Virus record (IMG/VR): IMGVR_UViG_3300023199_000165
Span: 1 to 54,675 of that record
Source of the DNA: a virus
Length of the DNA: 54,675 bases
Direction: 5' to 3' (one strand)
Under the pieces are notes generated by a model, which saw only the letters and a list, made by a program, of their open reading frames with translations, did not search any database and had not been told where the DNA came from. This document shows positions 1,835 to 23,023 of the stretch, in pieces (the stretch's first letter is position 1; each line of letters begins with the position of its first letter). A program made the translations under genes and the position numbers.

Positions 1835-3154
1835 TATGCTCTCCTCCTTATTGATGTTAGCGTTTTTTTGAATACCATTTGCTAAATCATGGAGTGCAGT
1901 TTGCATGGTATCCAATTTATTTGTAATTTTTAAAATCTGTTCAGAAATGTCAGTAGCCAGCCTATTTCCCCTTCCCTCTGGAACCCAGTTTAGGTTTGGT
2001 CCAGCACTGTGAGGATCTTGAGCTATATCCCCCCTTCCTCCAGTCATAGCTAGATTTCCAGCAAGACCATAGGGAGGGACAACTTCCACTTCATCTTTTT
2101 TATCAGTTATTTCACTTAAAAGCTCATTATATTGCTTTTCTAAAATTTCTTTATTTTTCAGCTCGTCTTCTTTTTCAATTAAAGCACGAAGCCTGCTTAA
2201 TGTTTCAACTTCTTCACTATTAAATGCTTGTTTTTTAACAACATTTTCCAAAGAAGCCTTTAAAGTTATGATTTCATTTTCAATTCTTTCGAGTTCCCCT
2301 GGCGTTACGCAACCTGCTTTTTTAAGCTCTTCAATTCTATCACCTTTTTCTTGTGAGTATGAATTTAGGTGAGCAATTACTGTTCTTAGTTTAGCAAGTG
2401 GATCAGCACCAGTGACAACAAGGCTTAATTCAATTGGAGATAAATCAACGTTAATTTCTCCATAACAGGCTCTTTTTTGAACACAGGGACAATAATCTGC
2501 CTCAACTTGTGCAACATTTCCACATTCATAGCAGATTGACTTTCCTACGGCTGTTCCCATAGATACGCTATTAGCATAGCCAGTAGCAACTTTTCTGGCA
2601 AGATCAGGATAGTTTACTTTATCAAGAGCACATAAAGCAATTACTCTTTTAAACTTATCATCGTAATAAGTATCAACAATAATACCGCGAATGCCGTCTA
2701 CTGAGCTGCTCTGATGATCTTTACATAATGGGCGACCAATCCAATTTCTATATGCCTTTTTTAATTCTGACTCAGGAAATATATCACCATTATTGTTTTT
2801 ATATGGTTTTATATTTGAATCTGAACAATTCCATTTCCAAGAACCACTTTTATCGTCAATTTTCCATTCAGCAGTTATTGGTTTTCCAGAAGAGTCTTTT
2901 TTTATTTCACCCGTATTTTGGTCAATAAGAGCGGCGTTCGCCGAATGTAGCATTATTGCTGTAAAGTATAAAAAATCTTTTGCTTTTGGAGCAACGCGTC
3001 TTAAATTATTAGCGAACTTTACAAATCTTTCTCTAATTTCCAAATCACTGGCGGCAACAGAGCTGAGCAGAGCATCTTTAAAATCACTATTTGGGCTTGG
3101 AGGTGTATAATTATTTGAATTAATTAGTCCTGTAGCATATTTAACAATCGTCAT
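1..3154 (-). CDS. Prohead protease fused in frame to scaffold-like region (3' end outside window)
   Basis: The frame is open from the ATG at 3154 to the window edge (more than 1,050 codons); the C-terminus is missing. Residues about 60-255 look like a capsid maturation serine protease: His147 in RPLCKDH and Ser198 in NSVSMG match the His/Ser layout of S78/HK97-type prohead proteases. Cys208, 211, 222 and 224 resemble a zinc knuckle. Residues 260-350 are coiled coil, followed by a Gly/Pro-rich linker. From Met441 onward comes a scaffold-like part with a duplicated module, a Lys/Glu-rich stretch and an acidic repeat tail. GGAG precedes the start by about 10 nt. Protease before scaffold, downstream of portal, is the classical head-gene order. 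The protease family call is by motif only, and how much of the gene is made as one chain is unknown. Confidence 0.75.
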   Translation of the reverse strand, partial: MTIVKYATGLINSNNYTPPSPNSDFKDALLSSVAASDLEIRERFVKFANNLRRVAPKAKDFLYFTAIMLHSANAALIDQNTGEIKKDSSGKPITAEWKIDDKSGSWKWNCSDSNIKPYKNNNGDIFPESELKKAYRNWIGRPLCKDHQSSSVDGIRGIIVDTYYDDKFKRVIALCALDKVNYPDLARKVATGYANSVSMGTAVGKSICYECGNVAQVEADYCPCVQKRACYGEINVDLSPIELSLVVTGADPLAKLRTVIAHLNSYSQEKGDRIEELKKAGCVTPGELERIENEIITLKASLENVVKKQAFNSEEVETLSRLRALIEKEDELKNKEILEKQYNELLSEITDKKDEVEVVPPYGLAGNLAMTGGRGDIAQDPHSAGPNLNWVPEGRGNRLATDISEQILKITNKLDTMQTALHDLANGIQKNANINKEESIMSDAKLQQRAKARRELFKAAYHQGGGGVNEPSTTPYPVDPINDQLKTKGDKQMEGQGMEPGNDGLHPGYESFGRSELELKKMLSRAELNERKMRRHALLSQAEGGKTYKDMQGNTYIDTDDGVKKVTESNASDELPEEYKELLGLASSSVKNAYHLGGGGINDPSATPYPVDPTNNNLKTNGDKQMEGQGMEPGNDGMHPGYQSYGNEEALKKKLLRANLKAVFKLAFHDADQKVINKKASKWVVLANDQKILEATGEQIFEDELEKRWNNLYSREYGKNLLAAVRSKGLNKVAYLLTGQPLFKTAEPGMPDVGMPEMGGGAPGGDSLPTPPPAEDEGPSADELEEGASNPVDSVISSLDSHLADAEKALGDLKDLMQEETGEGEGELPSPMAAKDKDEDDKDDEEKEEKDEKLCEKCKKAQCACDGTAPATAMEANDGNTLEQAVEVFADLERSADELAVLAETLEGRKNSSKGDIVTAQLLQLSSEAIKDYRSLQKKASLVLEAAGKKKEEEEDDKKEDKKKDKKKKEDKDEKEEKESKKKDKKATDMLEQLLQSRALKRRELVKEAMGEDMLSLEDDLDSDLGDSDLGDSDLGDSDLGDSDLGDSEDF
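11..91 (-). repeat. 15-bp tandem repeat coding for GDSDL units
   Basis: Five direct copies of a 15-bp unit (AGAATCCCCTAAATC; the fifth copy differs at two bases) lie inside the scaffold reading frame and encode an acidic Gly-Asp-Ser-Asp-Leu repeat. The unit length is a multiple of three, so copy-number changes keep the frame. It is a coding repeat, not a CRISPR array. Confidence 0.85.
1181..1777 (-). repeat. Duplicated 66-residue module in the scaffold part
   Basis: Two copies, 1577-1777 and 1181-1378, encode near-identical segments. Each begins AYH(Q/L)GGGG(V/I)N, continues through TPYPVDP and KQMEGQGMEPGNDG, and ends in a Leu/Lys-rich helix. They are separated by about 66 unrelated residues. 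This is internal duplication within one gene. Confidence 0.8.
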
Positions 3155-3210
3155 TTAAGTAATTCTCCACTAGTTTTATTAACCATGATTTATTTTTCCA
3201 ATTATGGCTT

Positions 3211-3885: not shown

Positions 3886-3895
3886 CTGCTATTAA

Positions 3896-4751: not shown

Positions 4752-5843
4752 TCAATCAACCGTCCCGTAATTACTGAAAAAAGGTGGAAGGGTCATTCCC
4801 TGGTTCATATTCTCTAATATCCCATCCTCTCTTAAACCAATTGAATTGGCAGCAATATCTTCATCTAACATATTAACATTACTAGAGTTTTCTAACATAT
4901 TGTCTAATATATCTATTACGGTAGATGCCTCTTTGTGTAAGTTACCGTATGAAAGCTTAGTAGCCAGTTTAGTTAGAGTATGAATAACACTAGAAGTTTT
5001 TATATCTGCTGGTGGATCATTATGGTGAAATTTTCTATAATCATACCATTTTGTTCTGCCCTTATTTTTTTGTCTCTCTCTTTCCACTTCTTTTAAAGAT
5101 CGCTCCACTATTTTTTTTACTGTTTCTGTATATGGAGCTTCACCACTTTTTTTATGAACTTCATTAGGAATATCTTCATAATTTTTGCCATATATGTATT
5201 CATCTGGCGACGGCCGTACTTTTGAAACAACTGGCATATTTTTCTCTTTTGGATTATATCCTTTCGGTGCCGGAATAACTTGAACAAGTTCATCAATAGC
5301 CTTGCTCCTCGCATCATCAAAAAATCTTGAATTTTTAGCAAGTTGCTCTATCTTTCCCTGATCTTCTTCCATCTCATTTCTTTCATCTTCAGACATAAGA
5401 TCTAAATCATGATATTTTGGATCTACGGCTGCTCTATCTAAGTATGTCATATTAATTTGATCTATAATTTCTCCAGAAAGTGCGTGACCCAAAGTTGATT
5501 CAAACCCTTTTTCTTTCCAAGAGTTAATTAAAAATCTTTTGGCTTGTTCAGCAGTTGCTCTATTTGGATATAAAGCCTCAATGTCATCCCCAATGGATAA
5601 AAATGTCCAATCTCTTGTATCTCCTTGCGTCTCACTTCTGCGTAACATACAATCTCTAATTGCCTGCTGTAAATTACGCTTTTTAATTTGTTCAACTACT
5701 TTGTCAGCCAAACCTGAAGCTTCAAGCTTCGCTCTTAAACTATCATTACAAATTATATTAACAATTTGATCATCTTTCCACATAGCTGGATCTTCTGCTA
5801 TTGGAAGTGTATTCATAGCCCTCTTACTTAAAATATATTGCAT
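4752..5843 (-). CDS. Virion-module protein with N-terminal LSKRA site (363 aa)
   Basis: The protein begins MQYILSKRAMNTLP, with the LSKRA motif at residues 5-9, so cleavage there would remove a very short leader. The body is mixed helical and charged. Near residues 300-330 is a copy of the recurrent helical hairpin (KLATKL...EASTVIDILDNML). The tail is polar. It starts 5 nt downstream of the stop of the 1,581-aa gene. No enzyme motif recognised. Capsid-internal location is inferred from the motif and position. Confidence 0.75.
   Translation of the reverse strand: MQYILSKRAMNTLPIAEDPAMWKDDQIVNIICNDSLRAKLEASGLADKVVEQIKKRNLQQAIRDCMLRRSETQGDTRDWTFLSIGDDIEALYPNRATAEQAKRFLINSWKEKGFESTLGHALSGEIIDQINMTYLDRAAVDPKYHDLDLMSEDERNEMEEDQGKIEQLAKNSRFFDDARSKAIDELVQVIPAPKGYNPKEKNMPVVSKVRPSPDEYIYGKNYEDIPNEVHKKSGEAPYTETVKKIVERSLKEVERERQKNKGRTKWYDYRKFHHNDPPADIKTSSVIHTLTKLATKLSYGNLHKEASTVIDILDNMLENSSNVNMLDEDIAANSIGLREDGILENMNQGMTLPPFFSNYGTVD
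5817..5831 (-). other. Candidate maturation cleavage site LSKRA
   Basis: Encodes LSKRA at residues 5-9 of the 363-aa protein, close to the N-terminus. Cleavage is inferred, not shown. Confidence 0.45.
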
Positions 5844-5848
5844 TTTAA

Positions 5849-8800
5849 TTATCTTCCTCCTCCTCCCAGTGGTAGTGGAACAGACATAATTCCCATAGGG
5901 TTATTCCCAATTTCCGCGTGCCAAGGCTCATATGACTCCATAGTTGTCGCAAATGGCTTATCTGACGGTGTGACCGTCAAAGGAGTGCTTTTCCTTTCCT
6001 TTTTAAGTGCCTCAATGGTTGGAATATCCAGCTTTCCTGTTGGATTTAAATGTCTTTGAAGTTGCCATTTTGACAACTCAATTGCGAATTCTCTGCTATT
6101 GGGATCAAGTTTCAAAAAATCTTTATTTGCCGTTTTTATAAAAGATTTAGTGTTATTAGATAATGAGGCATTATGGATTGTAGCTTCCTCAATAGCATTA
6201 AAAGCAGAAACTATCTTATCTGAACAAAGAAGAGTTATTCCCTCTTTTAACATTTCTTTTTCGTTATTTAACAATACATTAGCAACAAACTTTAGGTTTG
6301 GCTCAGTCATAGGTTTATTTGGGAGAAATTTATCCCTTATATCACTTAAAACAGTTGATGCTTGAAGCAAAGAAGCCGTTGTTTGATCCAGCCTTGATTC
6401 AAAAGGCTTCTTAATAACATCAGAGCTTATTTTGTCTGCTAAATTAGCAATATTAACTATAGCCTGATTAAACTGTGCCTTTTCCTCTGGTAGCTTAAAT
6501 TTATAGATATTTGTTTTGTCGTTAAAAACTATATATAATTCTACTTTTCCAAAAAATTCAGCATATTCCTTGTTTTCATTAATCATTAAATGAACAGTTA
6601 ATTTGTCACCTGTAGATTTATTTCCAACTTCAGCAACATATCGGTTTTTCCAAATGTTTCCACTTAAACGTTGAAAAGATAATTTGTTTAATATATAATT
6701 AGGTATTAAACTACCCAACTCCTCTTCTGTTCCAAATGGATTTGATTTCGTATTTTCAATATCACCACTTATAAATGCATTAACATAAAGTGGAATGCTG
6801 TTAATAAGATCACTTACCGTTGCTCTATCCTCTGTTCTCAAGTGCCAAGTATTAACTGGATGACCATCTTGTTTATTATTAGATCTCCACATATCAAAAT
6901 CTTTTTTGAGCTTCTCTATGATTTCAAAAACATCTGATGAAACAGCTATATGATAAATACCACTAAAATTAGCATAACTTAAAATTACTTTAACATTGCG
7001 AATTGAGTTAGTTTCATCTTTAAAAGCCATATTAGCAACAACAAATTCTTTGGTACGGGTTTTTTCAGTTCTTATTATTGACCATTTAAAATCATTATCT
7101 TGATAAGAAAATACGCTCATTATATCCTCTATGCCTTCCGCTCTTTTTGAAAGAGAAGCATCTTTATATCCCAACTCCTCCGCTTTATCATAATAAACTA
7201 AATATTCATCTTCATATTCTTCATCTTCATATTCTTCATATTGATAATTACTTGGTAAGAAAGATTTTCTGTCCTTTGCGTTTATAGTAATAAGGCCAAG
7301 TTCTTCTGCCTGAGCCAAAAATTCTTTTCTATTTGAAATTACTCCTATCAATTCTACCTCTGGGTCTGATGGATTAAGCCATCCTTCTGTTCTTAAAGAC
7401 CCAGAATCCCCTGTATTTGAAATTCTTTTTCCAGTAATTTTGTCTACAAAAGAGCTATTATCACTTTCAGAAAAAGAGACAACAGGTCCTGAGAAAACAA
7501 GACCTAAAAATATTTTTCTAGATTGCTGAAATAAGAAGTCTTCATTTTTTGATACACATATTTCTTCATTTAAATTAGAAAATTTAGTTAAAATTTGTTT
7601 AAAATTATTTTTTACATTATATAAATCTTCATCTGTTAAACGATTAGTATTTATAATGTGTATCCAATTTCCTTCAACATTTTCGTAGTCAATAAACCTC
7701 TCTTTTATTCTAAAACTAACTTTACTTGTATTATATGAAGTATTATCAATATAAATATCATAAACATATTCATATTTATTTAAATAAGAGTTAAATTTTT
7801 CTCTTAAATTTGGATGCGTTGAGAAAATACGAGTAATTAATAGTTTTGTCATTTTAAAAGAGAATTCAACCGTTTCTTCATTGGCTAATCTTTTAATAAT
7901 ATCATCAGTGAAAATTTTTGAAAATTTATCAGTATTTATATTTGGATATATCTTATTTAAATTAAAATAGAAAAATTCTCTACTATTTTTGTTTAAAAGT
8001 TCTTGGGCTTTATTAAACCCTATATCATAATAATAATTATATAAATGATTAGAGAAAAAGTCAATGGGATAAATAGATTTCGCATATTGTTTTCCAAAAT
8101 CAGGATATTTTTCGTGTAATTTAAGTGTATTAAAGACCATATATATATCTTGATCTCGCCTATATTTATTTAAAATTGAATTTAAGGCATCTTCAGTAAA
8201 ATCTGGATGCTCGTAATCTTTGTTTTTTTGAAAAAACTCAAAAGGATGGTCTAATGCCATATACTTGGCTGTTTCTTTATCTTGAATGTAATTTTCTGAC
8301 CGTTTTGATAAAGACCCATAAACATTTTTTTGAAAAAATCCAATATAATTTAAATCTTCCCATTTATCAATGGCAAGAAAATCTTTAATACTTGCTTCTG
8401 TTGTTCCGTCATCTGTTTTTATAACAGCAAGACCGTTTATCGGAGCATTCCTGCTCATAAGAGCATTTTGTACTGCCTTTATAGAAAATGGAGTTTTATC
8501 TGGAAGATCAATGCCATATTGATTTCCCATAATACTCACTCTTGACCATACATCTAATATCTCTTTCTCTATTTTCTTTTTAATAGGGTCTGTAGTATTA
8601 TATTCAATAAAAGTAAATTCATTTTCATTCATAACTTTTGCTTGCTCAGGAGTTAAAAATTCGTTTAATTTTTTAGCAAGTTCTTGATAGTGACTAGAAC
8701 CAGAAGGAACATCTATTACCTCTCCTGTCTCTGTATTAACCCAAAAACCATCAATGTTCATAGCCGTTTTAGAGTAGAGACAAGAAGATGAAATCTTTGG

Positions 8801-10594
8801 CAACTTAGACATAAACTCTTGTTCTTGCCTTTCGGCTTCACCTTCTCCTAGATGAGGATTAGAGAGAATATCTTCTTGCGTCCTTGTTTTCCCTATATGA
8901 CCGCCTTCGTGAGCTATTGTTTCCATTATCGCACGGATAATAGCTAATTGAATATCTCTTTCTGCTCTTCCAGTCAGATGTTGTTTAACATTATTAACGA
9001 TACGATCTTTGAAAATATGAACTTCTCTGGGGTCCTTTCCTGGACCCATTTCAACGTGTCCAAGCTGTCCAGAACCTCCACCTTGATGAACTACAACTTT
9101 TGTTACATTATTAAGCAGTGCTGGATCATATGTTTTCACTCCAACAACTGCCTGTTGTACTAAATTATCTAAAGGTTCAATAACCACATTTGGACTTTGC
9201 GGAATAGGCTTTAAACCTGGAGCATTTATATTGGGGCTTGGAGCAAGGGCTCTTTTGCTTAATGGCTTTTTACCTATTTTAATATTCGCAAAATTTTCTC
9301 CTGCCATTTGGATACGAACAGTATCTGCTTTCCACTCATATTTTTTATCCTTAAAGTCTAAAAATTCAGGCTTATCTTGTGAAAATCCTACAGTCATATG
9401 TGGAACCCATCCGTATTGCGACGGCAAATCAACTAAATTACTCACTACAGTTTCCAATTCTGTCTGTAAAGCACTTAAGCCTTTCGCATTTGGGACTAAG
9501 TAGATAGGAAAGCCATCCTCGCCTGCGTGGAAAAATCCTGATCCAGCAATGCTCATTTTAAGAGGCTCGTGTTTAGAACAAACCTTTTCAACGGCTTTTT
9601 TTATAGCTTCTCTGGTAATTTTATTTAAATCTTTAGCTTCTCCAAGATACAATAAAGTTAAGTGTAGTCCATCAGTAGAAACTGACTCTTCATCAATTAA
9701 ACCTGCTTTTGTTAATCGTTTTAAAATATTATCAGGAAGCATTAACGCAACCATCGCACCCGTATGCTTTTCTTTTTTAGCTTCTGTAATAAAACTTGCC
9801 CTTTTGCTTAAAGGATAAATAGCGGACGCAAGAGTGCCTATTCTACCGTCTTTTAGGTAGTCAGGTTCAAGTGTAGGTATAAGATATTGGTTTTTAAGAG
9901 TTCCAGGCTCGTGCCCAACTTCGGCAGCAGCCAATTCAAGAGCAGATTTAAACTCTTCTTTGAGCTTCTTATCTCTCTCTTTTTCACCCTTTGGTGGAAG
10001 TTTGCCTTTACGCACTTGCTTTAATGCTTTTCGCATTTCTTCATTCGCGTGAAGACCACGAATGTCTTTTGCGGTAATTTTGAATTTTTTTAGATAGGCG
10101 TTAATATTATCAGCGTTAATTGAATAATCATCACCTTTAAATACTTTATCATTCGGCCTTTTGTCTTTTAACAACTCTTTTAAAACTTTTAAAGTTCCTT
10201 TTTCACTAACTGTTTTTTTTTGTTTTACGCCAGATTTACCAACATATTTAATTGTAGCCTTTCCGTCTCTTATAGTGAAATGTTTTTTCATCCAAGTAGT
10301 GACGCCATAATGCTTTAAATTTCGTGCGGACGCAGAATTACCTACTCGCTCATAAGTTTCATCTATGAGTGCTACAGCTAAAGCAGTGTATTTAGTTTTC
10401 AAATCGCCACTTTGTAAATCTTTTCTTATTTGAGAACGCAATTTAGATAAAGATTTAGATAAAGATTTAATTCTTTTCATCTTTTTCTTGTTTCTATTTT
10501 CTATATGTTTTTTGCTGTAAACATAAGTTATATTTCCACTTTCTTCTTTACGCTTCTCAACATAATTTTTAGCTTCACGAATAGATAAAATCAA
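5849..10594 (-). CDS. Giant multidomain polyprotein: topoisomerase IB, 2H phosphoesterase, zincin (1,581 aa)
   Basis: The start is a TTG at 10594 with AGGAGAAGGA just upstream; it overlaps the previous stop as TTGA. Domains in order: topoisomerase IB, about 60-245, with all five catalytic residues visible (Arg83 in ERVGN, Lys120 in GKSG, Arg179 in KDIRG, His228 in EVGHEPG, Tyr237 in NQYLIP). Then LSKRA at 262. Then a 2H phosphoesterase, 275-435, with HLT at 311 and HMT at 399. Then LSKRA at 445. Then a zincin-like domain with HEGGH at 562-566 and a possible third ligand in GEGEAE. Unknown domains follow, bounded by LSKRS at 762 and LSKRA at 1148. The C-terminus has a peptidoglycan-binding-like stretch (LQRHLNPTGKLD) and a Gly-rich tail. 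It lies between portal and protease. I infer a capsid-internal polyprotein. Confidence 0.85.
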   Translation of the reverse strand: MILSIREAKNYVEKRKEESGNITYVYSKKHIENRNKKKMKRIKSLSKSLSKLRSQIRKDLQSGDLKTKYTALAVALIDETYERVGNSASARNLKHYGVTTWMKKHFTIRDGKATIKYVGKSGVKQKKTVSEKGTLKVLKELLKDKRPNDKVFKGDDYSINADNINAYLKKFKITAKDIRGLHANEEMRKALKQVRKGKLPPKGEKERDKKLKEEFKSALELAAAEVGHEPGTLKNQYLIPTLEPDYLKDGRIGTLASAIYPLSKRASFITEAKKEKHTGAMVALMLPDNILKRLTKAGLIDEESVSTDGLHLTLLYLGEAKDLNKITREAIKKAVEKVCSKHEPLKMSIAGSGFFHAGEDGFPIYLVPNAKGLSALQTELETVVSNLVDLPSQYGWVPHMTVGFSQDKPEFLDFKDKKYEWKADTVRIQMAGENFANIKIGKKPLSKRALAPSPNINAPGLKPIPQSPNVVIEPLDNLVQQAVVGVKTYDPALLNNVTKVVVHQGGGSGQLGHVEMGPGKDPREVHIFKDRIVNNVKQHLTGRAERDIQLAIIRAIMETIAHEGGHIGKTRTQEDILSNPHLGEGEAERQEQEFMSKLPKISSSCLYSKTAMNIDGFWVNTETGEVIDVPSGSSHYQELAKKLNEFLTPEQAKVMNENEFTFIEYNTTDPIKKKIEKEILDVWSRVSIMGNQYGIDLPDKTPFSIKAVQNALMSRNAPINGLAVIKTDDGTTEASIKDFLAIDKWEDLNYIGFFQKNVYGSLSKRSENYIQDKETAKYMALDHPFEFFQKNKDYEHPDFTEDALNSILNKYRRDQDIYMVFNTLKLHEKYPDFGKQYAKSIYPIDFFSNHLYNYYYDIGFNKAQELLNKNSREFFYFNLNKIYPNINTDKFSKIFTDDIIKRLANEETVEFSFKMTKLLITRIFSTHPNLREKFNSYLNKYEYVYDIYIDNTSYNTSKVSFRIKERFIDYENVEGNWIHIINTNRLTDEDLYNVKNNFKQILTKFSNLNEEICVSKNEDFLFQQSRKIFLGLVFSGPVVSFSESDNSSFVDKITGKRISNTGDSGSLRTEGWLNPSDPEVELIGVISNRKEFLAQAEELGLITINAKDRKSFLPSNYQYEEYEDEEYEDEYLVYYDKAEELGYKDASLSKRAEGIEDIMSVFSYQDNDFKWSIIRTEKTRTKEFVVANMAFKDETNSIRNVKVILSYANFSGIYHIAVSSDVFEIIEKLKKDFDMWRSNNKQDGHPVNTWHLRTEDRATVSDLINSIPLYVNAFISGDIENTKSNPFGTEEELGSLIPNYILNKLSFQRLSGNIWKNRYVAEVGNKSTGDKLTVHLMINENKEYAEFFGKVELYIVFNDKTNIYKFKLPEEKAQFNQAIVNIANLADKISSDVIKKPFESRLDQTTASLLQASTVLSDIRDKFLPNKPMTEPNLKFVANVLLNNEKEMLKEGITLLCSDKIVSAFNAIEEATIHNASLSNNTKSFIKTANKDFLKLDPNSREFAIELSKWQLQRHLNPTGKLDIPTIEALKKERKSTPLTVTPSDKPFATTMESYEPWHAEIGNNPMGIMSVPLPLGGGGR
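7139..7153 (-). other. Candidate maturation cleavage site LSKRA
   Basis: Residues 1148-1152 of the 1,581-aa protein, just after an acidic Glu/Tyr/Asp-rich linker. Confidence 0.45.
8297..8311 (-). other. Candidate maturation cleavage site LSKRS
   Basis: Residues 762-766 of the 1,581-aa protein, a Ser variant of the motif between two unknown domains. Confidence 0.4.
9248..9262 (-). other. Candidate maturation cleavage site LSKRA
   Basis: Residues 445-449 of the 1,581-aa protein, between the 2H phosphoesterase and the zincin-like domain. Confidence 0.5.
9797..9811 (-). other. Candidate maturation cleavage site LSKRA
   Basis: Residues 262-266 of the 1,581-aa protein, between the topoisomerase IB and 2H phosphoesterase domains. 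Confidence 0.5.
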
Positions 10595-10929
10595 ATTCCT
10601 TCTCCTGGAGAACTTAATAGCCTCGCCAATTCAATTAAAACCTGCTGAATAAAAGCCGGATTTAGCCCGCTCAGCAGGTTTTTTGTTAAACCAACGGATT
10701 GTCCAATCACTGAAGAGGGGGGCATTGTTTTACTACCAACTTCCCCTGGGTTAATTCGTATAATTTTGCCTTTAATGCGAGCTAAAAAGCGACTTCTGTC
10801 CTCTCTCGGCACCCGATAAAATACAAACTGCATTATTTTCAATATACTTTCCGCAGTTCTTCTGGCAGCAATATCCTTATTGTAAACCTCTGCCCTTTTA
10901 GAGATTGGAAGGTCTCTAATAGACAACAT
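10591..10929 (-). CDS. Small virion-module protein with N-terminal ISKRA site (112 aa)
   Basis: Begins MLSIRDLPISKRAEV, so the ISKRA motif ends 13 residues from the start, the size of a T4 capsid-targeting propeptide. The leader MLSIRD also resembles the start of the giant protein encoded next (MILSIREA). The rest is basic and helical, ending in a hydrophobic segment (SGLNPAFIQQVLIELARLL). It is translationally coupled to the 1,581-aa gene by a TTGA overlap. No family recognised. Confidence 0.7.
   Translation of the reverse strand: MLSIRDLPISKRAEVYNKDIAARRTAESILKIMQFVFYRVPREDRSRFLARIKGKIIRINPGEVGSKTMPPSSVIGQSVGLTKNLLSGLNPAFIQQVLIELARLLSSPGEGI
10891..10905 (-). other. Candidate maturation cleavage site ISKRA
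   Basis: Residues 9-13 of the 112-aa protein. An N-terminal propeptide-like position. Confidence 0.45.
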
Positions 10930-10937
10930 AATTCACC

Positions 10938-11300
10938 TTATTTACAGTATTTTTTAGGCAATGCTTTACAAGCTGCTCTTAAAGCCTTGTTCTCAGGATC
11001 CTTTTGTCCCTTCTCTTTGACTTTTTTAAGAGTTTCTTTATAAGTCTGCTTAAACTTATTAAGAGTTCTTGCGGGACAATTCATCTTTTTAAGATGTCTT
11101 AGCCACTGAGCATAAGTTTTTAAAGGAACTTTAGCCGCTTCACGAATAATTCCGTCAAGCTTGTTAGCTGCTTCAAAATACCCCTTTTTGTCAAAAGCAT
11201 CAGCAATGTCTGCTAATTTTTCCAAATCATTTTTATCATTGCTTTTTAGAATATCTAAAAGCTTAACTCTTGCCTCTTTTGATAATTTATCAAAACTCAT
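10938..11300 (-). CDS. Small helical protein with hairpin motif (120 aa)
   Basis: Begins MSFDKLSKEARVKL; LSKEA resembles the LSKRA motif but has Glu in place of Arg. Residues 25-55 carry the recurrent helical hairpin (LADIADAFDKKG...AANKLDGII). The C-terminal half is Lys-rich with scattered cysteines (MNCPAR, AACKALPKKYC). It overlaps the stop of the 163-aa gene as ATGA. No family recognised. Confidence 0.7.
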   Translation of the reverse strand: MSFDKLSKEARVKLLDILKSNDKNDLEKLADIADAFDKKGYFEAANKLDGIIREAAKVPLKTYAQWLRHLKKMNCPARTLNKFKQTYKETLKKVKEKGQKDPENKALRAACKALPKKYCK

Positions 11301-11788
11301 TTTTGTTCTCCTTTATTAAAATAATCCCACCAATTTTTAAATTCTCTTGGAGGACTTATGGCTGAGGTTAATATAAACCCAGATTTTAATATATTTTCGA
11401 ATTCTTTCATTTTTGAATATTCAAAGTTGTTTTCATCAATAATTCCAACTAAATATTTTTGTTTGAGCAGTTTAGCCATTTTATATGCTTTTTCAGCAGA
11501 TATTTTATACCTATGTTTAGTTGAACATTTACTAAATTTTTTAAATTCTAAGATTTTTGGAAGCAACTCATCAATATTATCTGCCATTTCATATTCGCCA
11601 TTTTTATCTAGAATATCTGCTATTTGTCTTAACTCAACTGTAGCTTTTTTAATATTTTCCTTAAACATATGCTCCATACAAGTTGTTAAAGCATCAGCTA
11701 AATATATATTACCAGTCTTATCCATTTTATCAATTATAGAAAGTAATTTTTTAACTATTTGTTTTTGTTCTAATAAATTAGTTTTCAT
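11297..11788 (-). CDS. Helical protein with two hairpin motifs (163 aa)
   Basis: Two consecutive copies of the helical hairpin lie in the N-terminal half: IIDKMDKTGNIYLADAL at about 17-34 and QIADILDKNGEYEMADNID at about 56-74. A C-terminal domain follows (AYKMAKLLKQKYLVGIIDE). It overlaps both neighbours by four bases (ATGA), so it is translated as part of a coupled run with the 102-aa and 120-aa genes. No family recognised. Confidence 0.7.
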   Translation of the reverse strand: MKTNLLEQKQIVKKLLSIIDKMDKTGNIYLADALTTCMEHMFKENIKKATVELRQIADILDKNGEYEMADNIDELLPKILEFKKFSKCSTKHRYKISAEKAYKMAKLLKQKYLVGIIDENNFEYSKMKEFENILKSGFILTSAISPPREFKNWWDYFNKGEQK

Positions 11789-12093
11789 TTTCTAGTTGCT
11801 CTCTTATTCACAGCTGTCGGTCTGCGAGTTATAGATGTGAAAACAGCCTGATAATATTCAAAATCTGGTTGCCAAAAAAGAGAAATAGCATCTCCATTTA
11901 TATATAAAGTCCCATTGTCAGGAATTTCAAAAACAATTATATTGTCCTCTACTTCTTTTACAAATCCACGAAAATACTCCTTATTTGCCGCCCACGATTC
12001 AGAATAAGTCAAGGTTTCAGCTTCCTCTCCTAAATAAATACATAATTCTTGATCTATAAAGCGATTTTTAATAAAATTGGCAGAACCCATCAT
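11785..12093 (-). CDS. Small beta-rich protein of unknown function (102 aa)
   Basis: AAGGAG lies two bases before ATG 12093 and five before ATG 12090; either may be used. The sequence alternates in beta-strand fashion (NIIVFEIPDNGTLYINGDAI) and ends in a basic tail (RRPTAVNKRATRK). A small barrel fold is possible, but I recognise no family. It is coupled to the 163-aa gene by an ATGA overlap. Confidence 0.6.
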   Translation of the reverse strand: MMGSANFIKNRFIDQELCIYLGEEAETLTYSESWAANKEYFRGFVKEVEDNIIVFEIPDNGTLYINGDAISLFWQPDFEYYQAVFTSITRRPTAVNKRATRK

Positions 12094-12119
12094 AACTCCT
12101 TAATTTTAATATTCTATTA

Positions 12120-15100
12120 TTAATAGTCTCTAAATGATAGAATATAATTGGATTTCTTAATTTGACCTTGAGATAAATACTCTTCCAGCCTTTTTAAGGC
12201 TTCAGAAGGGTCGGAAGTTTCAGAAGATATTTTCTCTGTCCTCTCTAGCACCATTTTCCAAAACTCTGGATCTGGATTGTCTTCACTACTCAGAACCAGT
12301 CTGCCAAACTTTTCGAAGAATTTTTCCTTATCATTGTCGCTTCTTACCTCGTGCATCATTCTAATAGGTTTCCACCTGTAATCTCCAGGTATTATATATG
12401 CCTGAACTAATAAATACTCTCCATCATATAAAGTAGTATCTTCTTTATTAAACTTTAATGTATGATAATTATAGTCTATAATCTCATCAACCTTATTATC
12501 TTTCTCCTTTAAAATTTTAAATTTTATTTCCTCAGGAACTGCTACCTCTCCATTTAAAATTCTAGGATATTTTTCTTTTATATTAATAACTTCTTCTGGA
12601 TTTAGTTTCCAAGCACCAAGAACTTTCATTATTCTTGGTTTTTTAGAAGAATTTTTTCTTAGAGGCTTGCCATCTTTATTTAATTTTAATTTAAGATTAC
12701 AGCTAGCGTGGAAATCATCTCCATTTTTAACTTTAGTTATAAAAAATGTCCCTTCCTCACCATTTGATGGAATTCCATCAGTTTTTTCATTAACTAAAAA
12801 TGAATTTAATCCATAAATTTGAAATCCATTTTTTACTCGTAGCATTCTATCTAACCAAGAGCGAAGCAAAGGTATATAGAAATCTGCTCTATTTTCCTTA
12901 GTTGAGCGTTTTATTTTTTTCTTTCTTTTAATAACCATTCCATCTTTTTCAATTTTTTCATAATATGAATATTTTGAAAGCCAAGCAATGAATAGGTCTC
13001 TATTTTTTTCTGAAAAATCTTTTATCTCATCATACAGAGCCATAAGTCTTAAATTACTTTGATGTTTTTTTGAATATTTAATTTTAGAAACATCTTGCCC
13101 AGAGTTAATCATTTCAGCTAAAACTGAAGAGAATTTTTTTGTTAGACGTCTGTGCTTAATATCCAAAATACTTTTAGCATATTCGGCATATTTATCATAA
13201 AGAATATCTAGATGCTGATCTGCCTCTTGTTCAGACTTATCTGATACTCCAGGAACTCCTTCATCTATTACAGATGGCTGAGAAATCCAAATTGATCTCA
13301 TATAAGGATCCCATATTAGCCCGCCTCTACCCATAGGTCCTTTGCCCCAAGCCTCTCTTGGCGTAAATCTAGAACCATCGTGTGGACAGATAAAAGGAAC
13401 GTCCCATATTGCTTTAGCAGGAAGTCTTCTTTTATTATCTGGCACGTCATCAGCCTCACTGCCTTTCCCCTGCCAAGGAGGAACAATATCATACTCTTTT
13501 TTAAAATATCTTAAAGCCTTTTTTCCTGCCTCAGTATCCCAAAAGCTTTGTCTTTTTTCCTCACTCCAGTCTATGGAGTTTAGAGGAATTTTTTGTCCCG
13601 GACAATTTTCATTAATACATATTAAATGTAATGTTGGAACACCAGTCTGATTTGAAAATAGTTTATAATCTTTTTCTACTTCAGATATTTCATTTTTAAG
13701 CATCTCGTTACGAATTAATAGCTCGTCTTTATATTTCTTTTTAGTATATAGCCTTTGTAGGTGCCTATTTTCCTGTTCCTCATCCTCTGAAATAGATAGT
13801 CTTTTATTTAATCCATTAATTACATTATCAACCTGGGCAATTTCCATTCTCAATCGCTTGTGATTTGATTTTAGATCTGAAAGTTTGCTTTCTGCCGTTT
13901 CCGCATATTTTTTACAATTTGGGCAAGACCAAGTGTTTTTAGACTTACTATCTTTTTCCATTATATTTGAAAAGGCGCCCTTTGCTGCTTTTGCTCTACA
14001 TATAGAACATTCTGGCAAACGCTTTTCAATTAAATCTCTTTCTTTAGCAATAACTTTAGTCATAGAGTTATTTAAAGCCTTATATAAATAATTCGGCAAT
14101 AAATACTGGTGCTTTTTATTTTCATCACTAAGATAAGTATTTAAAATGTCTGCGAAAAAAGTTAAAGCATATTTTTTATAAGTTAGAGCTGATGGCAAGT
14201 TTCTTATATTATGATTATCTAGTCGCTTTTGTAATAAATTGTTTTCTTTTTCTAATTGAGCAATAACTTTTTTGTTGGGGCTTTTCTTAGATTTTTCTCT
14301 TTGTAATTTGGACCCAATATTTTCTAAAGCAATTTGAAGCTCTTCTCTTATTTCTTTAAATCTATCATATTCATTTGGCTCAAGCATTGTAAATACACCA
14401 CGAGCCATTGTTCCAGCAATATTGTTATTTAGCCATCTCTTTGCGATATTAATTGTTAAAGAAGGATATATCCAATTTTTAAGAATTTCGTCTCTATTTT
14501 CTTCTTCATCTAGTATTTGCCAAGTATCTGGTTTAGCAAAAACTCTTGTTGTCGCATAACCATCTTTAAAATTTTCTACAGAAAAAAGCTCTTTCGCTTT
14601 ATCAGACATTTCTGGCATAATTATATCATCAGCAGAAGGCCAGTCTTCATAAGGCTCAAAAGAAAATCCATATATAGTTTTTCTATTTTGAAGTTTTAAA
14701 ATTTTGGTCATAGTTTCGTGGGGAGTTTCTTCTCCATCCACTATCTTTTTTTTTAAATTTTTTAAATCATTAGATGAAAGTTTTAGAGAGTCTGGTTCCG
14801 CTTCTGTAAGTTCTTTAAAATCCTCAGCATCTTCAACTGTGTCAAAATCACTTACATCTTCAAGAGTACTAGCCTCATTTACTTTTTTTTTTATATTTTT
14901 ATTTCCTTGTGAAGTAAATTTTTTTTCTATCTCTTTAAGTCTAGATTCTTGAGTTTTAAGTTCTGAGTCTATTTCATTATGCCATTTCCTAACGTCTTCT
15001 TCTGAAATTTTATCTTTTCCAGAAATCATTTCTTTTCCAATTGATTTTGAAAATTCATCAGCTCGCTGACTATCTTCTAAACTCAACTTTCCTTCTCCAC

Positions 15101-17813
15101 TTTCGCCAAATAATGAAATAGCATCTTCATAATTAACTTTGTCTGTATATACAATCCTGCCTTTGATAATGTTTCTAATTATAGCAATTCTATCTAGCCT
15201 TTCTTTTAACTTATCCTTTTTAACTATAATTTCCTGTAAAGTTTTTTTGTATTCGTCTAAACTATCTTTTTCCTCTATAACTTCTTCTTCATTTTCCTCT
15301 GGAACTTCTTCTTCATTTTCCTCTGGAACTTCTTCTTTAGTTTCCTCTGGAACTTCTTCTTTAGTTTCCTCTGGAGATTTTGATTCTTCATCTGAAATCC
15401 CCAACATAGAAAATAAATCAGAACTATCTTCATCTTCTTCATCTTCTTCAATATTTTTTAAATCTGAAAGCATTTTTTGAAGTTCAGTATCGCCACTATC
15501 TCCCTTTACATCAGGATCCATTAAATCTTTAAAAGAATCAACAGATTTCTTTTTTTCTTCAATAATTTCCTCAGGAACACTTACATCAGGCTTTGTCTCT
15601 TCTTTTTCTGGCAAAGGAGAAACTATTTTTCTTCTTTTTGGTTTCTTCTCCACAATTGGCTCTTTTTTCTTTTCTTCAACAGGTTCCTCATCAACAACAA
15701 TTTCTTCAGGAGATAATACCTCATCGCCCCAATCTAAGCCTTGCTGCCTAAGCCATTCATCTCCTGGATCGTTTTCATTAGAAACTTCCTCTGATTTAAG
15801 CCTCTCATATTCTTCTGGATTTTCAAATTTAATTCTTTGTAGATTTGGATCATCTTCCAATTCATCCGCAAATTTCCACAGCTCTTTTAAATCCATAGCA
15901 TATGATACTTTATCCTTAATCTCTGAAACAAGTATTTCTGCTAAATGTTCTGGCTCAACATTATATCCAGTAATTAATTCATCATCTTTTTCAAAAGGAA
16001 CCTCTCTTGAAGCAGTTTTGTAAGATGAAAATTTATCATTAATTGCCTCATTTGTCATAATGGCAATTGGACAAATTGAGTTAGATATAATATCTCTAAT
16101 GCTATTTAAAAAAGTTATATCATTACCAACAATATAAATTCCATTATAACCATTGTTGCTATATAGATCATTAGACATATTTATAATATTGCCATTTTCG
16201 GAAATAGCACTTGAATTTATTGAAGCGGTAGATACTGATATATTATTTCTCTCAAAAGCATCTTTTGCTTTAAAGTATTCTTTATCATTGAACACTGGTG
16301 GTACGATCATTAAAACTTTTTTCATAGCTCTAGAGGAAAGGAAATCATCATCAACTGCGTTATAAGAATAAGGTTCGGTAGGAGCAACCGCCTGATATGG
16401 CGATTGTCTTATTACGCCTCCCTCACCTAATGGATGAGGATCAGTTCCGTGCCGATTTCCAAAATCATTGTTATTATAAACATCATCAACTTTTTGGTCA
16501 TTTGCTAAATCAAACCTTATAATATAAAACTTATGATCATCGCCAAACCTTTGTTCCAAACCATCGGCTGTTCTATCACCATAGGCTTTTCTAATTCTAT
16601 CTGTATTCATAACTGACTTATCAATTATTTTAAGATTAAAAGGATGGGCTCCGCCATATGTTTTACACCTAACAACTTCATTTACATTAACAGGAACATC
16701 ATTTGCTCTAATTGTGTATCGACGTTTCCCTGAACGAATATCTTCAACATATTGCGATGGAAAAAATAGCGTTCCAGGCTCATTAAAATTAGCTCGTTTT
16801 GATAACAAAGAAGCAGTTGTTGGCTTGGGTATAGAATTCCAATTTTCTATAACCCATTCACTAATGATTTTCGTATTATAAGACCAAAACTCATCTTCAG
16901 TTATTTTTTGACCCAATTGTTCCTCATACTCTGCCCAAGCAGTATCTCTTAATCCCTTATCATATTTAAAAATACTGCGTAGCTTATTAACGGTGTCATT
17001 TAAAACAGCAATAAACTCTTCTCGCTTTATTCCTTTTAAATCATATTGGACTTCTTCGGTTATAGGATGTTGTGAAAATTCAGTTCTTGCCTCTTCAAAA
17101 TCTGTTTGATCAGGAGAAAATTCAATTACCCCTTCTTGAAAAGTTTCATCAGCCCTTTTGCTTAAAGAAAACTCATAAGATGTTTCACTAGATTTTAGAA
17201 TTTTTTGAATAGTTCTTAATCTTTTTAAAGAACTACTCTCATAGGCTCCTGGAGAAGCCGTATACCACCCATCTCTTCCAAGCTGACGGAAAAACATAGG
17301 ATCTCCAGACAGAAGTAGGGCTCTGCTTTTGGCATATCTTTTTCTACTTAGTACTTGTAAAACTCCTCTTACTCCATCAACAAAAGATCTATATGCTCTA
17401 AAATAACGTGGGCGCCTCTCTATACACTTTCCTTTAGGACACTTGTTTGAAGGTTTTAGCCCTTTGCGACAAGGAACGCATTCATCAGATAGGACTGATG
17501 TATAATATCTTCTTTTTTTCCAACCATCACCAGCTTTTATTCCAGCAAGGTTATAGTTCATTACTCTCTTGCCCCACCCAGTCTCGTGAGCGGTAAAGGC
17601 TGTTATTAATTTGGCAGAAGCAGGAGATAATCCAAATTTAATGGCGGCATTATAAACCTTTATAGTGAAATCTTCCTTTCCTTTAAAAGAATTCCACGAT
17701 AAACTAATGCGATTCTTCGTCCCACCTTTGTTCTTATATAATAATTTTAGAATTTCTTCTAATTTGCCCCCGTTTTTTACCAAAACTTCGGCTATTTTGT
17801 CAATAAATAACAC
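12120..17813 (-). CDS. Giant multidomain polyprotein: peptidoglycan hydrolase, ASCH-like, DJ-1-like, zinc ribbons (1,897 aa)
   Basis: The start is a GTG at 17813, eight bases after GGGGAG. Domains in order: a glucosaminidase/lysozyme-like domain, about 45-205 (catalytic Glu77 in TAHETGWG; NLAGIK), with an inserted four-Cys patch (112, 115, 125, 130). Then LSKRA at 217. Then a helical unit. Then LSKRA at 337. Then an ASCH-like domain, 343-440 (FPSQYVEDIRSGKRRYTIR). Then LSSRA at 492. Then a DJ-1/PfpI-like Rossmann domain, 497-640. Then an acidic low-complexity stretch with four EE(T/N)xEEVP-type repeats (about 815-848), coiled coils, a CxxC...CxxC ribbon (1269-1300), further Cys sites, and a large C-terminal part I do not recognise. 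It lies downstream of portal. I infer a virion-internal polyprotein whose first domain could attack the cell wall. Confidence 0.85.
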   Translation of the reverse strand: MLFIDKIAEVLVKNGGKLEEILKLLYKNKGGTKNRISLSWNSFKGKEDFTIKVYNAAIKFGLSPASAKLITAFTAHETGWGKRVMNYNLAGIKAGDGWKKRRYYTSVLSDECVPCRKGLKPSNKCPKGKCIERRPRYFRAYRSFVDGVRGVLQVLSRKRYAKSRALLLSGDPMFFRQLGRDGWYTASPGAYESSSLKRLRTIQKILKSSETSYEFSLSKRADETFQEGVIEFSPDQTDFEEARTEFSQHPITEEVQYDLKGIKREEFIAVLNDTVNKLRSIFKYDKGLRDTAWAEYEEQLGQKITEDEFWSYNTKIISEWVIENWNSIPKPTTASLLSKRANFNEPGTLFFPSQYVEDIRSGKRRYTIRANDVPVNVNEVVRCKTYGGAHPFNLKIIDKSVMNTDRIRKAYGDRTADGLEQRFGDDHKFYIIRFDLANDQKVDDVYNNNDFGNRHGTDPHPLGEGGVIRQSPYQAVAPTEPYSYNAVDDDFLSSRAMKKVLMIVPPVFNDKEYFKAKDAFERNNISVSTASINSSAISENGNIINMSNDLYSNNGYNGIYIVGNDITFLNSIRDIISNSICPIAIMTNEAINDKFSSYKTASREVPFEKDDELITGYNVEPEHLAEILVSEIKDKVSYAMDLKELWKFADELEDDPNLQRIKFENPEEYERLKSEEVSNENDPGDEWLRQQGLDWGDEVLSPEEIVVDEEPVEEKKKEPIVEKKPKRRKIVSPLPEKEETKPDVSVPEEIIEEKKKSVDSFKDLMDPDVKGDSGDTELQKMLSDLKNIEEDEEDEDSSDLFSMLGISDEESKSPEETKEEVPEETKEEVPEENEEEVPEENEEEVIEEKDSLDEYKKTLQEIIVKKDKLKERLDRIAIIRNIIKGRIVYTDKVNYEDAISLFGESGEGKLSLEDSQRADEFSKSIGKEMISGKDKISEEDVRKWHNEIDSELKTQESRLKEIEKKFTSQGNKNIKKKVNEASTLEDVSDFDTVEDAEDFKELTEAEPDSLKLSSNDLKNLKKKIVDGEETPHETMTKILKLQNRKTIYGFSFEPYEDWPSADDIIMPEMSDKAKELFSVENFKDGYATTRVFAKPDTWQILDEEENRDEILKNWIYPSLTINIAKRWLNNNIAGTMARGVFTMLEPNEYDRFKEIREELQIALENIGSKLQREKSKKSPNKKVIAQLEKENNLLQKRLDNHNIRNLPSALTYKKYALTFFADILNTYLSDENKKHQYLLPNYLYKALNNSMTKVIAKERDLIEKRLPECSICRAKAAKGAFSNIMEKDSKSKNTWSCPNCKKYAETAESKLSDLKSNHKRLRMEIAQVDNVINGLNKRLSISEDEEQENRHLQRLYTKKKYKDELLIRNEMLKNEISEVEKDYKLFSNQTGVPTLHLICINENCPGQKIPLNSIDWSEEKRQSFWDTEAGKKALRYFKKEYDIVPPWQGKGSEADDVPDNKRRLPAKAIWDVPFICPHDGSRFTPREAWGKGPMGRGGLIWDPYMRSIWISQPSVIDEGVPGVSDKSEQEADQHLDILYDKYAEYAKSILDIKHRRLTKKFSSVLAEMINSGQDVSKIKYSKKHQSNLRLMALYDEIKDFSEKNRDLFIAWLSKYSYYEKIEKDGMVIKRKKKIKRSTKENRADFYIPLLRSWLDRMLRVKNGFQIYGLNSFLVNEKTDGIPSNGEEGTFFITKVKNGDDFHASCNLKLKLNKDGKPLRKNSSKKPRIMKVLGAWKLNPEEVINIKEKYPRILNGEVAVPEEIKFKILKEKDNKVDEIIDYNYHTLKFNKEDTTLYDGEYLLVQAYIIPGDYRWKPIRMMHEVRSDNDKEKFFEKFGRLVLSSEDNPDPEFWKMVLERTEKISSETSDPSEALKRLEEYLSQGQIKKSNYILSFRDY
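15295..15375 (-). repeat. Acidic coding repeat (EETKEEVP / EENEEEVP)
   Basis: Four tandem copies of a 24-bp unit inside the 1,897-aa gene encode a Glu/Pro/Val repeat that separates the N-terminal enzyme domains from the coiled-coil and zinc-ribbon part. Confidence 0.7.
16326..16340 (-). other. Candidate maturation cleavage site LSSRA
   Basis: Residues 492-496 of the 1,897-aa protein, directly before MKKVLMIVPP, the first strand of the DJ-1/PfpI-like domain. Confidence 0.4.
16791..16805 (-). other. Candidate maturation cleavage site LSKRA
   Basis: Residues 337-341 of the 1,897-aa protein, directly before the ASCH-like domain. Confidence 0.5.
17151..17165 (-). other. Candidate maturation cleavage site LSKRA
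   Basis: Residues 217-221 of the 1,897-aa protein, directly after the peptidoglycan hydrolase domain. Confidence 0.5.
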
Positions 17814-22800: not shown

Positions 22801-23023
22801 ATTCCGACCTATTTAAATCTTTATTATGGTTTGTTGGCATAACAGTATGAGTTTTGTTTAAACTACTATTATCATAGTTTATACCCTCTTTTACCACTCC
22901 CCTATTAACTTGCTCAGCAAGTATTTCTTTCCTATAATTTGAAAGTTTTGATGCTATTTTAGGAGTAATTCTAATTGTTTTAGAATCTCCTTTTTGTCCA
23001 GCTCTTGATGTTCTTCGTGTCAT
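19898..23023 (-). CDS. Portal protein precursor with in-frame intein (1,041 aa; mature about 663 aa)
   Basis: The portal forms the dodecameric ring at the head vertex through which DNA is pumped. The extein has a polar N-terminal arm, a Gly-rich loop (SIGGGGGGGS), then FDLHPIVRNAI and WKMGE joined across the intein to CFPYAELDEE, the usual portal core. It continues with the membrane-free helical domain (VYSSASIGLEVLRQRYFNFRN) and a Gly/Pro/Met-rich tail. GAGG precedes ATG 23023. The gene follows the terminase, the normal order. The intein occupies residues 225-602; splicing must occur for a functional ring. Confidence 0.85.
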   Translation of the reverse strand: MTRRTSRAGQKGDSKTIRITPKIASKLSNYRKEILAEQVNRGVVKEGINYDNSSLNKTHTVMPTNHNKDLNRSEWNQSHNQRVINSNSRLSPVVAHSESFMRKSAVEDSFQKNAASIGGGGGGGSTSFSGVDRLAPEIYSPLFTMANLNLPRDRITVNAWLRNFFDLHPIVRNAITLHATYPISKLNIKCPDKKVLHFFEDMIEEMNLFESLSGIALEFWKMGECVRSCNHLTILSKGFKRADEVEVGDLVLTHTGEYKEVLERKINWKHKEYLSITIQGQNEPIELSSNHPIYASKVGNINRNEKRSKIINSRPTFENEDKWEWDWIKSGELSINDFCIIPVNREEEDISSISKDLCRLIGIYSAEGSLDYNSYYNKTSVPKCVVISNTDENLWNYYKPIFKNCNLRLSLNGNNGYLRSNLSKRDATSLFAKKIKKFAGQYSDKKMLSSEIMNLPADKQMEIVNGFIDGDGWIHSGRICMATISRTLAFQIKDILARNYITCSINKHSKNRKNDIYFIEVPLFYANKFNLYKTKQDKLNEEKEKRPLKPNNVPRVKFSKDGHIIAPIKKIERKSLPIGEPLYNFEVDDNHSYCVEGIAVHNCFPYAELDEESGKWSKIIIQNPDYIHVKKTVLAGQPMISLRPDAVLQRLVMSNNPADVQLRKQIPEQILYHVRAGQDIPLDNFNVSHLKMLSSPYDVRGTSVIVSTFKDLMLYDKLREAKFAQADGLVNPITVVKLGGNTDGEYRATQEDLEDFKQMLEEAQYDKDFKLITHAGVDISRVGAQGAVLDIGSDMELIIKNIYTGLMVPPAVVDTESAVYSSASIGLEVLRQRYFNFRNMVANWLQNKIFAPISELNNFFTYDDGRKKLIIPEVEWNKMNLYDLQDYIGNITGLVSQKQASLQTLYKSLGLNYEEERIKQRQELINDVIRQREEQALMTMSLSELRTLNPEKEIAEPVDDVKRELKPGGQGQGADMGGMPGGDMGLGLPGGDLGGMGGGGLPELAPPPSGELGGGGLGGAGAPEGGSNIPPLGPGSPTGGP
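21218..22351 (-). mobile_element. Intein with LAGLIDADG homing endonuclease in the portal
   Basis: The likely first residue is Cys225 (CVRSCNHLTILSKGFKRA), followed by the block-A pattern and GDLVL; a second Cys at 229 is an alternative. Block B is SSNHPIYA. Two dodecapeptides mark the endonuclease: LIGIYSAEGSL (about 360-370) and VNGFIDGDGWI (about 464-474). The C-terminal splice block reads YNFEVDDNHSYCVEGIAVHN, ending in Asn602, with Cys603 as the +1 nucleophile. All splice residues are present, so it should be active. Length is about 378 residues. Confidence 0.9.

Follow-up and report, generated by a model that had tools for sequence, protein, structure and literature searches.

Giant head-module polyproteins in a phage G-related virus carry a recurrent hydrophobic-x-K-x-A signal at domain borders, a candidate processing site for putatively virion-delivered enzymes

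The stretch of viral DNA analysed here (hereafter, the window) is an entire IMG/VR record of 54,675 bases and probably represents part of a larger virus genome. Four of its proteins, two of them giant, contain LSKRA or a related pentapeptide and are encoded between the portal protein (upstream) and the head maturation protease (downstream), a gene order that close relatives keep. The features of this module are as follows.

2..3154, minus strand, running off the window: head maturation protease with a fused scaffold-like region; protease domain at about residues 44-267; phrog_18299 (E=5.6e-12), phrog_4523
2..1834, minus strand, running off the window: candidate nested in-frame scaffold gene, read directly from the sequence, with AAGGAGG and an ATG at about 1834 (MSDAKLQQRAKARRELF)
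4752..5843, minus strand: 363-aa cassette protein, MQYILSKRAMNTLPIAEDPAMW..., an internal cassette in the relatives G002 and G004
5817..5831, minus strand: LSKRA at residues 5-9 in the 363-aa cassette protein
5849..10594, minus strand: polyprotein A, 1581 aa; topoisomerase IB (TopoIB) / 2H phosphoesterase / zincin / X1 / X2 / X3 / peptidoglycan-binding-like C-terminus
7139..7153, minus strand: LSKRA1148, X2/X3 border of polyprotein A
8297..8311, minus strand: LSKRS762, X1/X2 border of polyprotein A
8762..8776, minus strand: YSKTA607, degenerate motif at the zincin/X1 border of polyprotein A; ISKRA starts X1 in the related locus L097, and AlphaFold2 confidence falls at 605-610
8795..9154, minus strand: HExxH zincin-like metallopeptidase cassette, polyprotein A residues 481-600 (ETIAHEGGHIG and alignment)
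9248..9262, minus strand: LSKRA445, 2H/zincin border of polyprotein A
9293..9766, minus strand: 2H phosphoesterase (2'-5' RNA ligase-like), polyprotein A residues 277-434 (Pfam 2_5_RNA_ligase2, 2.6e-13)
9797..9811, minus strand: LSKRA262, TopoIB/2H border of polyprotein A
9890..10528, minus strand: topoisomerase IB core, polyprotein A residues 23-235 (Pfam Topoisom_I, 2.4e-26)
10591..10929, minus strand: 112-aa head-module protein, MLSIRDLPISKRAEVY...
10891..10905, minus strand: ISKRA9 of the 112-aa protein
12120..17813, minus strand: polyprotein B, 1897 aa; glucosaminidase-like / X / ASCH / DJ-1/PfpI / acidic / large unknown
15867..15881, minus strand: LWKFA645, PfpI/acidic border of polyprotein B; 6 relatives have [LI]WK[IVF][AG] in this position
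16326..16340, minus strand: LSSRA492, border ahead of the DJ-1/PfpI-like domain of polyprotein B
16494..16769, minus strand: ASCH-like domain, polyprotein B residues 349-440, homologous to Pfam ASCH matches in L006, L012 and L013
16791..16805, minus strand: LSKRA337, X/ASCH border of polyprotein B; dip in AlphaFold2 confidence at residues 332-338 between two folded domains
17151..17165, minus strand: LSKRA217, glucosaminidase/X border of polyprotein B
19898..23023, minus strand: portal protein with a LAGLIDADG intein, at the upstream end of the module (phrog_16240, 1.8e-46; PF14528; PF14890); homologue of phage G gp14

The protease reading frame probably contains a nested in-frame scaffold gene, since a strong ribosome-binding site and an ATG lie at about 1834; by analogy, this is likely to be a scaffold arrangement as in lambda C/Nu3. 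The scaffold part of the frame (about 1834 and below, minus strand) contains L..RA..RR repeats, and the related locus L097 has an internal MSDKELRQRAAARR start, the same as the presumed scaffold start of the window. Portal inteins with homing-endonuclease sequence are found at differing positions (window 19898-23023, L084 1570-4686, L086 307-4593), L086 has an additional intein within a LigD phosphoesterase cassette (7334-16870), and broken or frameshifted homing-endonuclease-like frames lie between head genes in the window (3211-3782) and in several relatives. WWKC/GCPYC zinc-ribbon-like repeats occur elsewhere in the window. The ends of polyprotein A homologues have in common a Pro/Gly-rich tail, GIMS[IV]PxPxG.. 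(window 5849-5950), and a similar GMTLPPFF tail ends the 363-aa protein (window 4752-4820); these tails possibly have a role in capsid contact.

The head maturation protease is encoded in the same module as the polyproteins. The first-pass annotation had taken it for a T4-like enzyme, which its sequence does not bear out: it groups with gp19 of Bacillus phage G (32% identity over residues 44-261) and with the head-maturation proteases of mycobacteriophages and of Gordonia and Rhodococcus phages (phrog_18299). Judged by sequence, the protease is of the phage G/cluster C type and not of the T4 gp21 type. The protease matched no Pfam family, and a PDB profile search with it gave nothing meaningful; a distant fold relation to T4 gp21 (S77) may exist. 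For both portal and protease, the nearest cultured homologues are those of phage G (gp14 and gp19), followed by those of actinophages.

All nine sites proposed earlier (5817, 7139, 8297, 9248, 9797, 10891, 16326, 16791 and 17151) were found in the four proteins named, near the N-terminus of the 363-aa (residues 5-9) and 112-aa (ISKRA9) proteins and, in both giant proteins, at positions flanked by domains recognised with Pfam or BLAST. LSKR followed by Ala or Ser, which the first-pass annotation had not found by eye in the replication genes, is missing elsewhere: no other protein of the window has the motif, and other instances of LSKR or ISKR precede D or Q. When residues were shuffled across all 48 window proteins, 0.027 copies of LSKRA and 0.17 of [LI]S[KS]R[AS] were expected, against six and nine observed, respectively. 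The codons differ between copies (TTA AGT AAG AGG GCT, CTT TCA AAA AGA GCG and TTA TCA AAA CGA GCT, for example), so that selection on the motif acts at the protein level, and a repeated DNA element is ruled out as its source. Two weaker members, YSKTA (8762-8776) and LWKFA (15867-15881), can be added to the same series of sites. The original observation is confirmed and is much stronger than first stated.

Relatives were gathered by alignment scans with the portal, ASCH, protease and zincin sequences (about 170 loci), the closest of which encode giant proteins at the corresponding position. These scans yielded about 20 related polyproteins from metagenomic phages, and 21 proteins entered the comparison of domain cores and linkers. 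L213, a short tblastn match, was omitted because it looked like an unrelated locus. A scan of viral contigs with the whole 1581-aa protein as query and scans of genome contigs found no relative, no polyproteins of this type occur in any cultured relative, and the major capsid protein was not identifiable in the close relatives. The motif scan suggested in the first-pass annotation showed that LSKRA is kept at homologous borders in diverged relatives. In this set, all 39 copies of the strict motif fall in the 13,010 aa that lie outside conserved domain cores, and the 21,455 aa of the cores contain none. The pentamer that recurs most often de novo is LSKRA, with 20 contexts whose flanks are unrelated; ISKRA comes next, and Phe occupies position -2 in 20 of 37 sites. 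At the X/ASCH border, h-x-K-x-A (h, hydrophobic) stands at the same place in 13 of 13 relatives, as LSKRA, ISKRA, VSKRA, LSKHA, LSKLA, LQKWA, LQKCA, IVKCA or LVKCA, with K and A invariant and the upstream flanks essentially unconserved. The same two residues are invariant in the zincin alignment (8/8), and seven proteins, that of the window among them, have [LI]WK[IVF][AG] at the PfpI/acidic border.

The base composition of these relatives spans about 30-56% GC. In G001 (301,683 bases, 30% GC), five of five copies of [LIFMV]SKRA fall in the two polyproteins (0.23 expected; 300 kb scanned), and G003 has four copies, two in polyprotein B, one in the zincin protein and one in an 874-aa protein (0.07 expected). 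G002 (56% GC) has two exact copies only, both N-terminal, and LSKLA, LSKMA and LSRRA at internal borders; the signal therefore persists, in degenerate form, through a large change in base composition. Most copies in G004 and G005 lie within the same module, two ISKRA occurring in other G005 proteins, and homologues of the 112-aa protein have LSKRA, LSKRH, LSSRI, LSNRI or LSIRD at the same N-terminal place. The ASCH/LigD-Pol border has no recognisable motif in any relative, and at the POL/PfpI border the motif is missing in several. A few copies are C-terminal (ISNRA2404 in G005, LSKRT1764 in G002), where cutting would free just a few residues. Both kinds of exception count against the motif being a cutting site. 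The neighbourhood of the TopoIB homologue in LR745208 contains no LSKRA, so the motif is not universal among TopoIB-carrying huge phages; its absence from the 40 kb examined of G007, a distant relative with the same protease family and no giant polyprotein seen, is expected and uninformative.

The signal extends beyond the polyproteins. In three genomes, 27 of 100 head-module ORFs have an N-terminal h-x-K-x-[AS], compared with 19 of 429 elsewhere (p=2.7e-10; since homologous borders do not count as separate events, p-values overstate the evidence here). This enrichment ties the motif to the head and not just to the polyproteins; the window protease itself begins with such a form, MTIVKYATG. 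As expected of processing by a head protease, the same short sequence is thus common to the presumed cut sites (most cassette starts) and to other head proteins. The cut consensus of T4 gp21-type proteases is [LI]-x-E; the recurrent motif contains no Glu. Shuffles, relatives and N-terminal enrichment agree that the motif is non-random, stands at borders or N-termini and is mostly confined to head-module proteins, as the first-pass annotation held. LSKRA, the form it named, is the commonest one, but the consensus is broader: because K and A are invariant at the borders and h-x-K-x-[AS] recurs N-terminally in the head module, LSKRA is one form of h-x-K-x-A. It is almost certainly a selected signal of cassette borders.

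AlphaFold2 models based on homologue alignments are of mixed, modest quality (mean pLDDT 69 and 53). In polyprotein A, residues 8-250 and 471-604 form mostly confident folds with the motifs outside them, the 2H domain itself being poorly modelled. In polyprotein B, a helical domain (about 265-330) is separated from ASCH (about 340-440) by a stretch, 332-338, where confidence falls under 50; confidence is also low over 441-497, LSSRA492 included, ahead of the PfpI-like fold. The motifs are accordingly predicted to occupy low-confidence linkers between domains.

The decisive evidence comes from cassettes that are internal in one virus and free-standing in another. In the window, L084 and L097 the zincin cassette is internal and preceded by LSKRA, and in other loci it is a stand-alone protein with an N-terminal motif (MFYLSKRA in L098, MIPLSKRA in L100, MTDFLLSKRA in L095, ...SFSFSKRA in L093). 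In L097 the order is [ISKRA]X1-[LSKRA]zincin, swapped with respect to the [LSKRA]zincin-[YSKTA]X1 of the window, each cassette retaining its own motif. The 363-aa (PIAxDP) cassette, stand-alone in the window with an N-terminal LSKRA, is internal in a G002 polyprotein after LSRRA (LSRRAALERLPIAADPVMW; E=1e-10 to the window protein in a two-sequence comparison) and in an 865-aa protein of G004 after IRKLA (IRKLADMERLPIMADPILW; E=3e-8, likewise). A ParB-like insert occupies several differing positions, following LSKRA or LSKRD in G001 and G005. In stand-alone cassette proteins the motif lies inside the first 4-17 residues. Longer architectures are modular in the same manner, for example (motifs in parentheses): ligase (LSKRA) lysozyme (LSKRG) X (LQKCA) ASCH, Pol (LSKRH) Y, PfpI, B6 (ISKRA) LigD 3'-phosphoesterase in L086; ligase, ParB-like insert (LSKRA) lysozyme (FSKRA) X (LSKRA) ASCH, Pol, B6, phosphoesterase in L084; and phosphoesterase (LSKRA) ParB-like insert at the end of a G001 polyprotein, the names lysozyme and ParB-like being read from the sequence without a Pfam match. 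Because cassettes that are fused, split or reordered keep the motif at their start, the comparison of sequences indicates that signal plus domain is a unit of evolution.

Polyprotein B of the window is without ligase, polymerase and 3'-phosphoesterase cassettes. In L086 and other relatives the corresponding polyprotein has a DNA ligase domain (2e-32) and a LigD 3'-phosphoesterase (2.4e-22); the LigD polymerase-like domain is sub-threshold (0.002 in L008), yet aligned across relatives. LigD-type domains occur as head-module cassettes in L086 (7334-16870), L084 (7277-15583), L006, L008, L088, G001, G003 and G004, with the complete set in several. Some relatives may thus possess a virion-packaged DNA end-joining kit.

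In a sister clade (L012/G006), ISKRA precedes ASCH in a polyprotein of 4150 aa whose borders otherwise carry a longer motif, approximately [AGS]SR[LIF]DxIxK[LIV]A, in nine copies; this motif shares its K-h-A end with the window signal. Sister-clade loci include L201 (G006) 2056-14508 and L013 13242-19406, with a further copy in the next giant ORF, and KRLDKIIALA, with a similar end, is found at the C-terminus of the preceding protein. In L013 (4726-11681), L012 (6837-13157) and L015, small paralogues with differing bodies have a common leader, MILxLIKLANKLDxLGYKKESxxIDxLIKxA, which has the look of another targeting leader, longer than the first. The window proteins at 10938-11300, 11297-11788 and 17830-19113 contain related LDxxGxxxEA stretches.

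The closest known kinds of system are the polyvalent proteins and the processed internal proteins of T4 and SPN3US type. Polyvalent proteins of phages and conjugative elements are predicted to be injected with DNA, and polypeptide processing has been proposed for them (Iyer et al. 2017, PMC5512222). They too are giant, mix 2H phosphoesterase, zincin and cell-wall enzymes, and adjoin portal or head genes. The window proteins likewise join unrelated activities in one polypeptide (TopoIB, 2H and zincin in one; glucosaminidase, ASCH and PfpI in the other, the glucosaminidase-like match being weak at 7.7e-6, under the curated Pfam cut-off) and are encoded with phage packaging genes, between portal and head protease. 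They differ in that the accessible part of the source reports no recurrent short inter-domain or N-terminal signal, in that relatives add LigD ligase, polymerase and 3'-phosphoesterase cassettes, and in that the candidate processor is the head protease and not only an in-cis zincin (PMC5512222). A literature search for phage polyproteins with an inter-domain motif, in which subscription journals were mostly outside coverage, returned the polyvalent-protein paper only.

The T4 internal proteins are packaged and ejected enzymes with a short N-terminal leader of about 10 residues, which can both target the protein and be cut by gp21 (PMC9026906); T4 differs in that its protease is unrelated by sequence, its cut consensus is not h-x-K-x-A, and the signal is not repeated within multi-enzyme polyproteins as it is here. 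In SPN3US, also a huge phage, the head protease gp245 cuts head proteins of the SPN3US/phiKZ type, ejection proteins among them, at the tripeptide-scale consensus A-x-E, at several sites per protein; these cuts strip propeptides off single proteins, whereas the motifs described here separate distinct enzymes (PMC10052503). DarA of P1 is a head-internal substrate of the head protease (PMC12810830). For none of these three do the accessible parts of the sources describe a signal that separates different enzymes (PMC9026906, PMC10052503, PMC12810830). In Bacillus phage G, some head genes, gp13 (MKRLISKTA) for one, have h-x-K-x-A close to the N-terminus, but the interval from portal to capsid genes encodes no giant polyproteins. 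A Gordonia phage head protein annotated as head maturation protease/RNA ligase (phrog_18402) also places a 2H domain in the head module, a likeness limited to the 2H region (26-33% identity).

Several explanations of the motif have to be weighed against processing by the head protease. Chance recurrence starts from the fact that L, S, K, R and A are common residues in an AT-rich phage, and is refuted by the shuffles (0.027 LSKRA expected in the window) and by the homologues, in which LSKRA is the top de novo pentamer and none of the 39 copies falls in a domain core; we give it practically no weight. That the motif has no present function, being left over neutrally from gene fusions or acting as a generic linker, would accord with the clear fusion and splitting of cassettes, but K and A are invariant amid unconserved flanks in 13 relatives of about 30-56% GC, and an in-frame start with its own ribosome-binding site is missing close upstream of most internal copies, which makes this reading very improbable. 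The latter observation also led us to reject internal translation starts as the general reason for the motif; such a start is possible at LSKRA1148 (start 7 codons upstream, purine-rich stretch 26-28 nt upstream) and at LSKRA445 (start 15 codons upstream, SD-like stretch 40 nt upstream).

The motif might instead be an encapsidation tag, docking on scaffold, portal or capsid and left uncleaved or cleaved incidentally, with the polyproteins delivered whole. A cut 4-17 residues from the start of a stand-alone protein would remove almost nothing, fusion of tagged genes would leave tags internal, and about 10 N-terminal residues are enough for the packaging of T4 internal proteins (PMC9026906). One tag per polypeptide would do, however, and three to five are kept at the same borders in relatives whose domains are 30-50% identical, in what are predicted to be unfolded linkers; because several copies are retained per protein, cutting is the easier explanation, and we consider the tag unlikely. 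Least unlikely among the alternatives, though still improbable, is cleavage at the same sites by another protease, be it the in-polyprotein zincin, the PfpI-like cassette or a host enzyme, either inside the virion or once a new cell has been infected. Polyprotein A contains an HExxH cassette, HELxH sequences are also present in the sister-clade polyprotein, and LSKR/A presumably resembles dibasic sites, which we counted in favour of this reading. Zincins have, moreover, been put forward as processors of polyvalent proteins by Iyer et al. (2017, PMC5512222). Against it, a conserved border has W, C, H or L in place of the R but keeps K and A, which disfavours dibasic (Kex2-like) host cleavage; L116 has a zincin without the motif; and h-x-K-x-A is shared with the N-termini of many head-module proteins, the head protease included, which favours that protease over an in-cis zincin.

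On balance, we therefore think it probable, if by no means assured, that the head cluster of this phage G-related huge phage encodes modular polyproteins that are cut at h-x-K-x-A by the adjoining head protease, their enzymes being delivered by the virion. Each cassette would open with the processing signal, mostly (F-x-)[LI]-S-K-R-A; the prohead would be loaded with cassettes; and, as the head matures, the protease encoded next door would cut within the signal, the Ala or its immediate neighbourhood being the likeliest place. The enzymes so freed (in the window, topoisomerase IB, 2H phosphoesterase, zincin, glucosaminidase/lysozyme, ASCH and PfpI; in relatives, additionally LigD ligase, polymerase and 3'-phosphoesterase) would then leave with the DNA, and in stand-alone cassette proteins the signal within the first 4-17 residues would serve as a T4-like short, cleaved targeting leader. 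Such cutting would account for the many copies per protein, their position in linkers and the sharing of the motif with head-protein N-termini. A wider proposal, to which we give somewhat less than an even chance, is a 'cut-and-shuffle' delivery code: a single head protease would read h-x-K-x-A both as a leader in stand-alone virion proteins and as a separator in polyproteins, so that enzyme genes fused behind it become packaged and released effectors, the set in some relatives comprising the three LigD activities as an end-joining kit that the virion would deliver to serve the incoming genome, and the sister clade using a second border code.

On the question of where, and by what, polyvalent phage proteins are cut, the conserved signal offers exact predictions, about nine cut sites in one phage and dozens in its relatives. 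If the proposal is true, virion-delivered effectors would be predictable from sequence, as head-module genes that open with h-x-K-x-A or contain it ahead of a domain. The LigD cassettes suggest that the particles of some huge phages contain a toolkit for DNA end joining, and such a set, if indeed delivered by the virion, would suit the circularisation or repair of incoming DNA.
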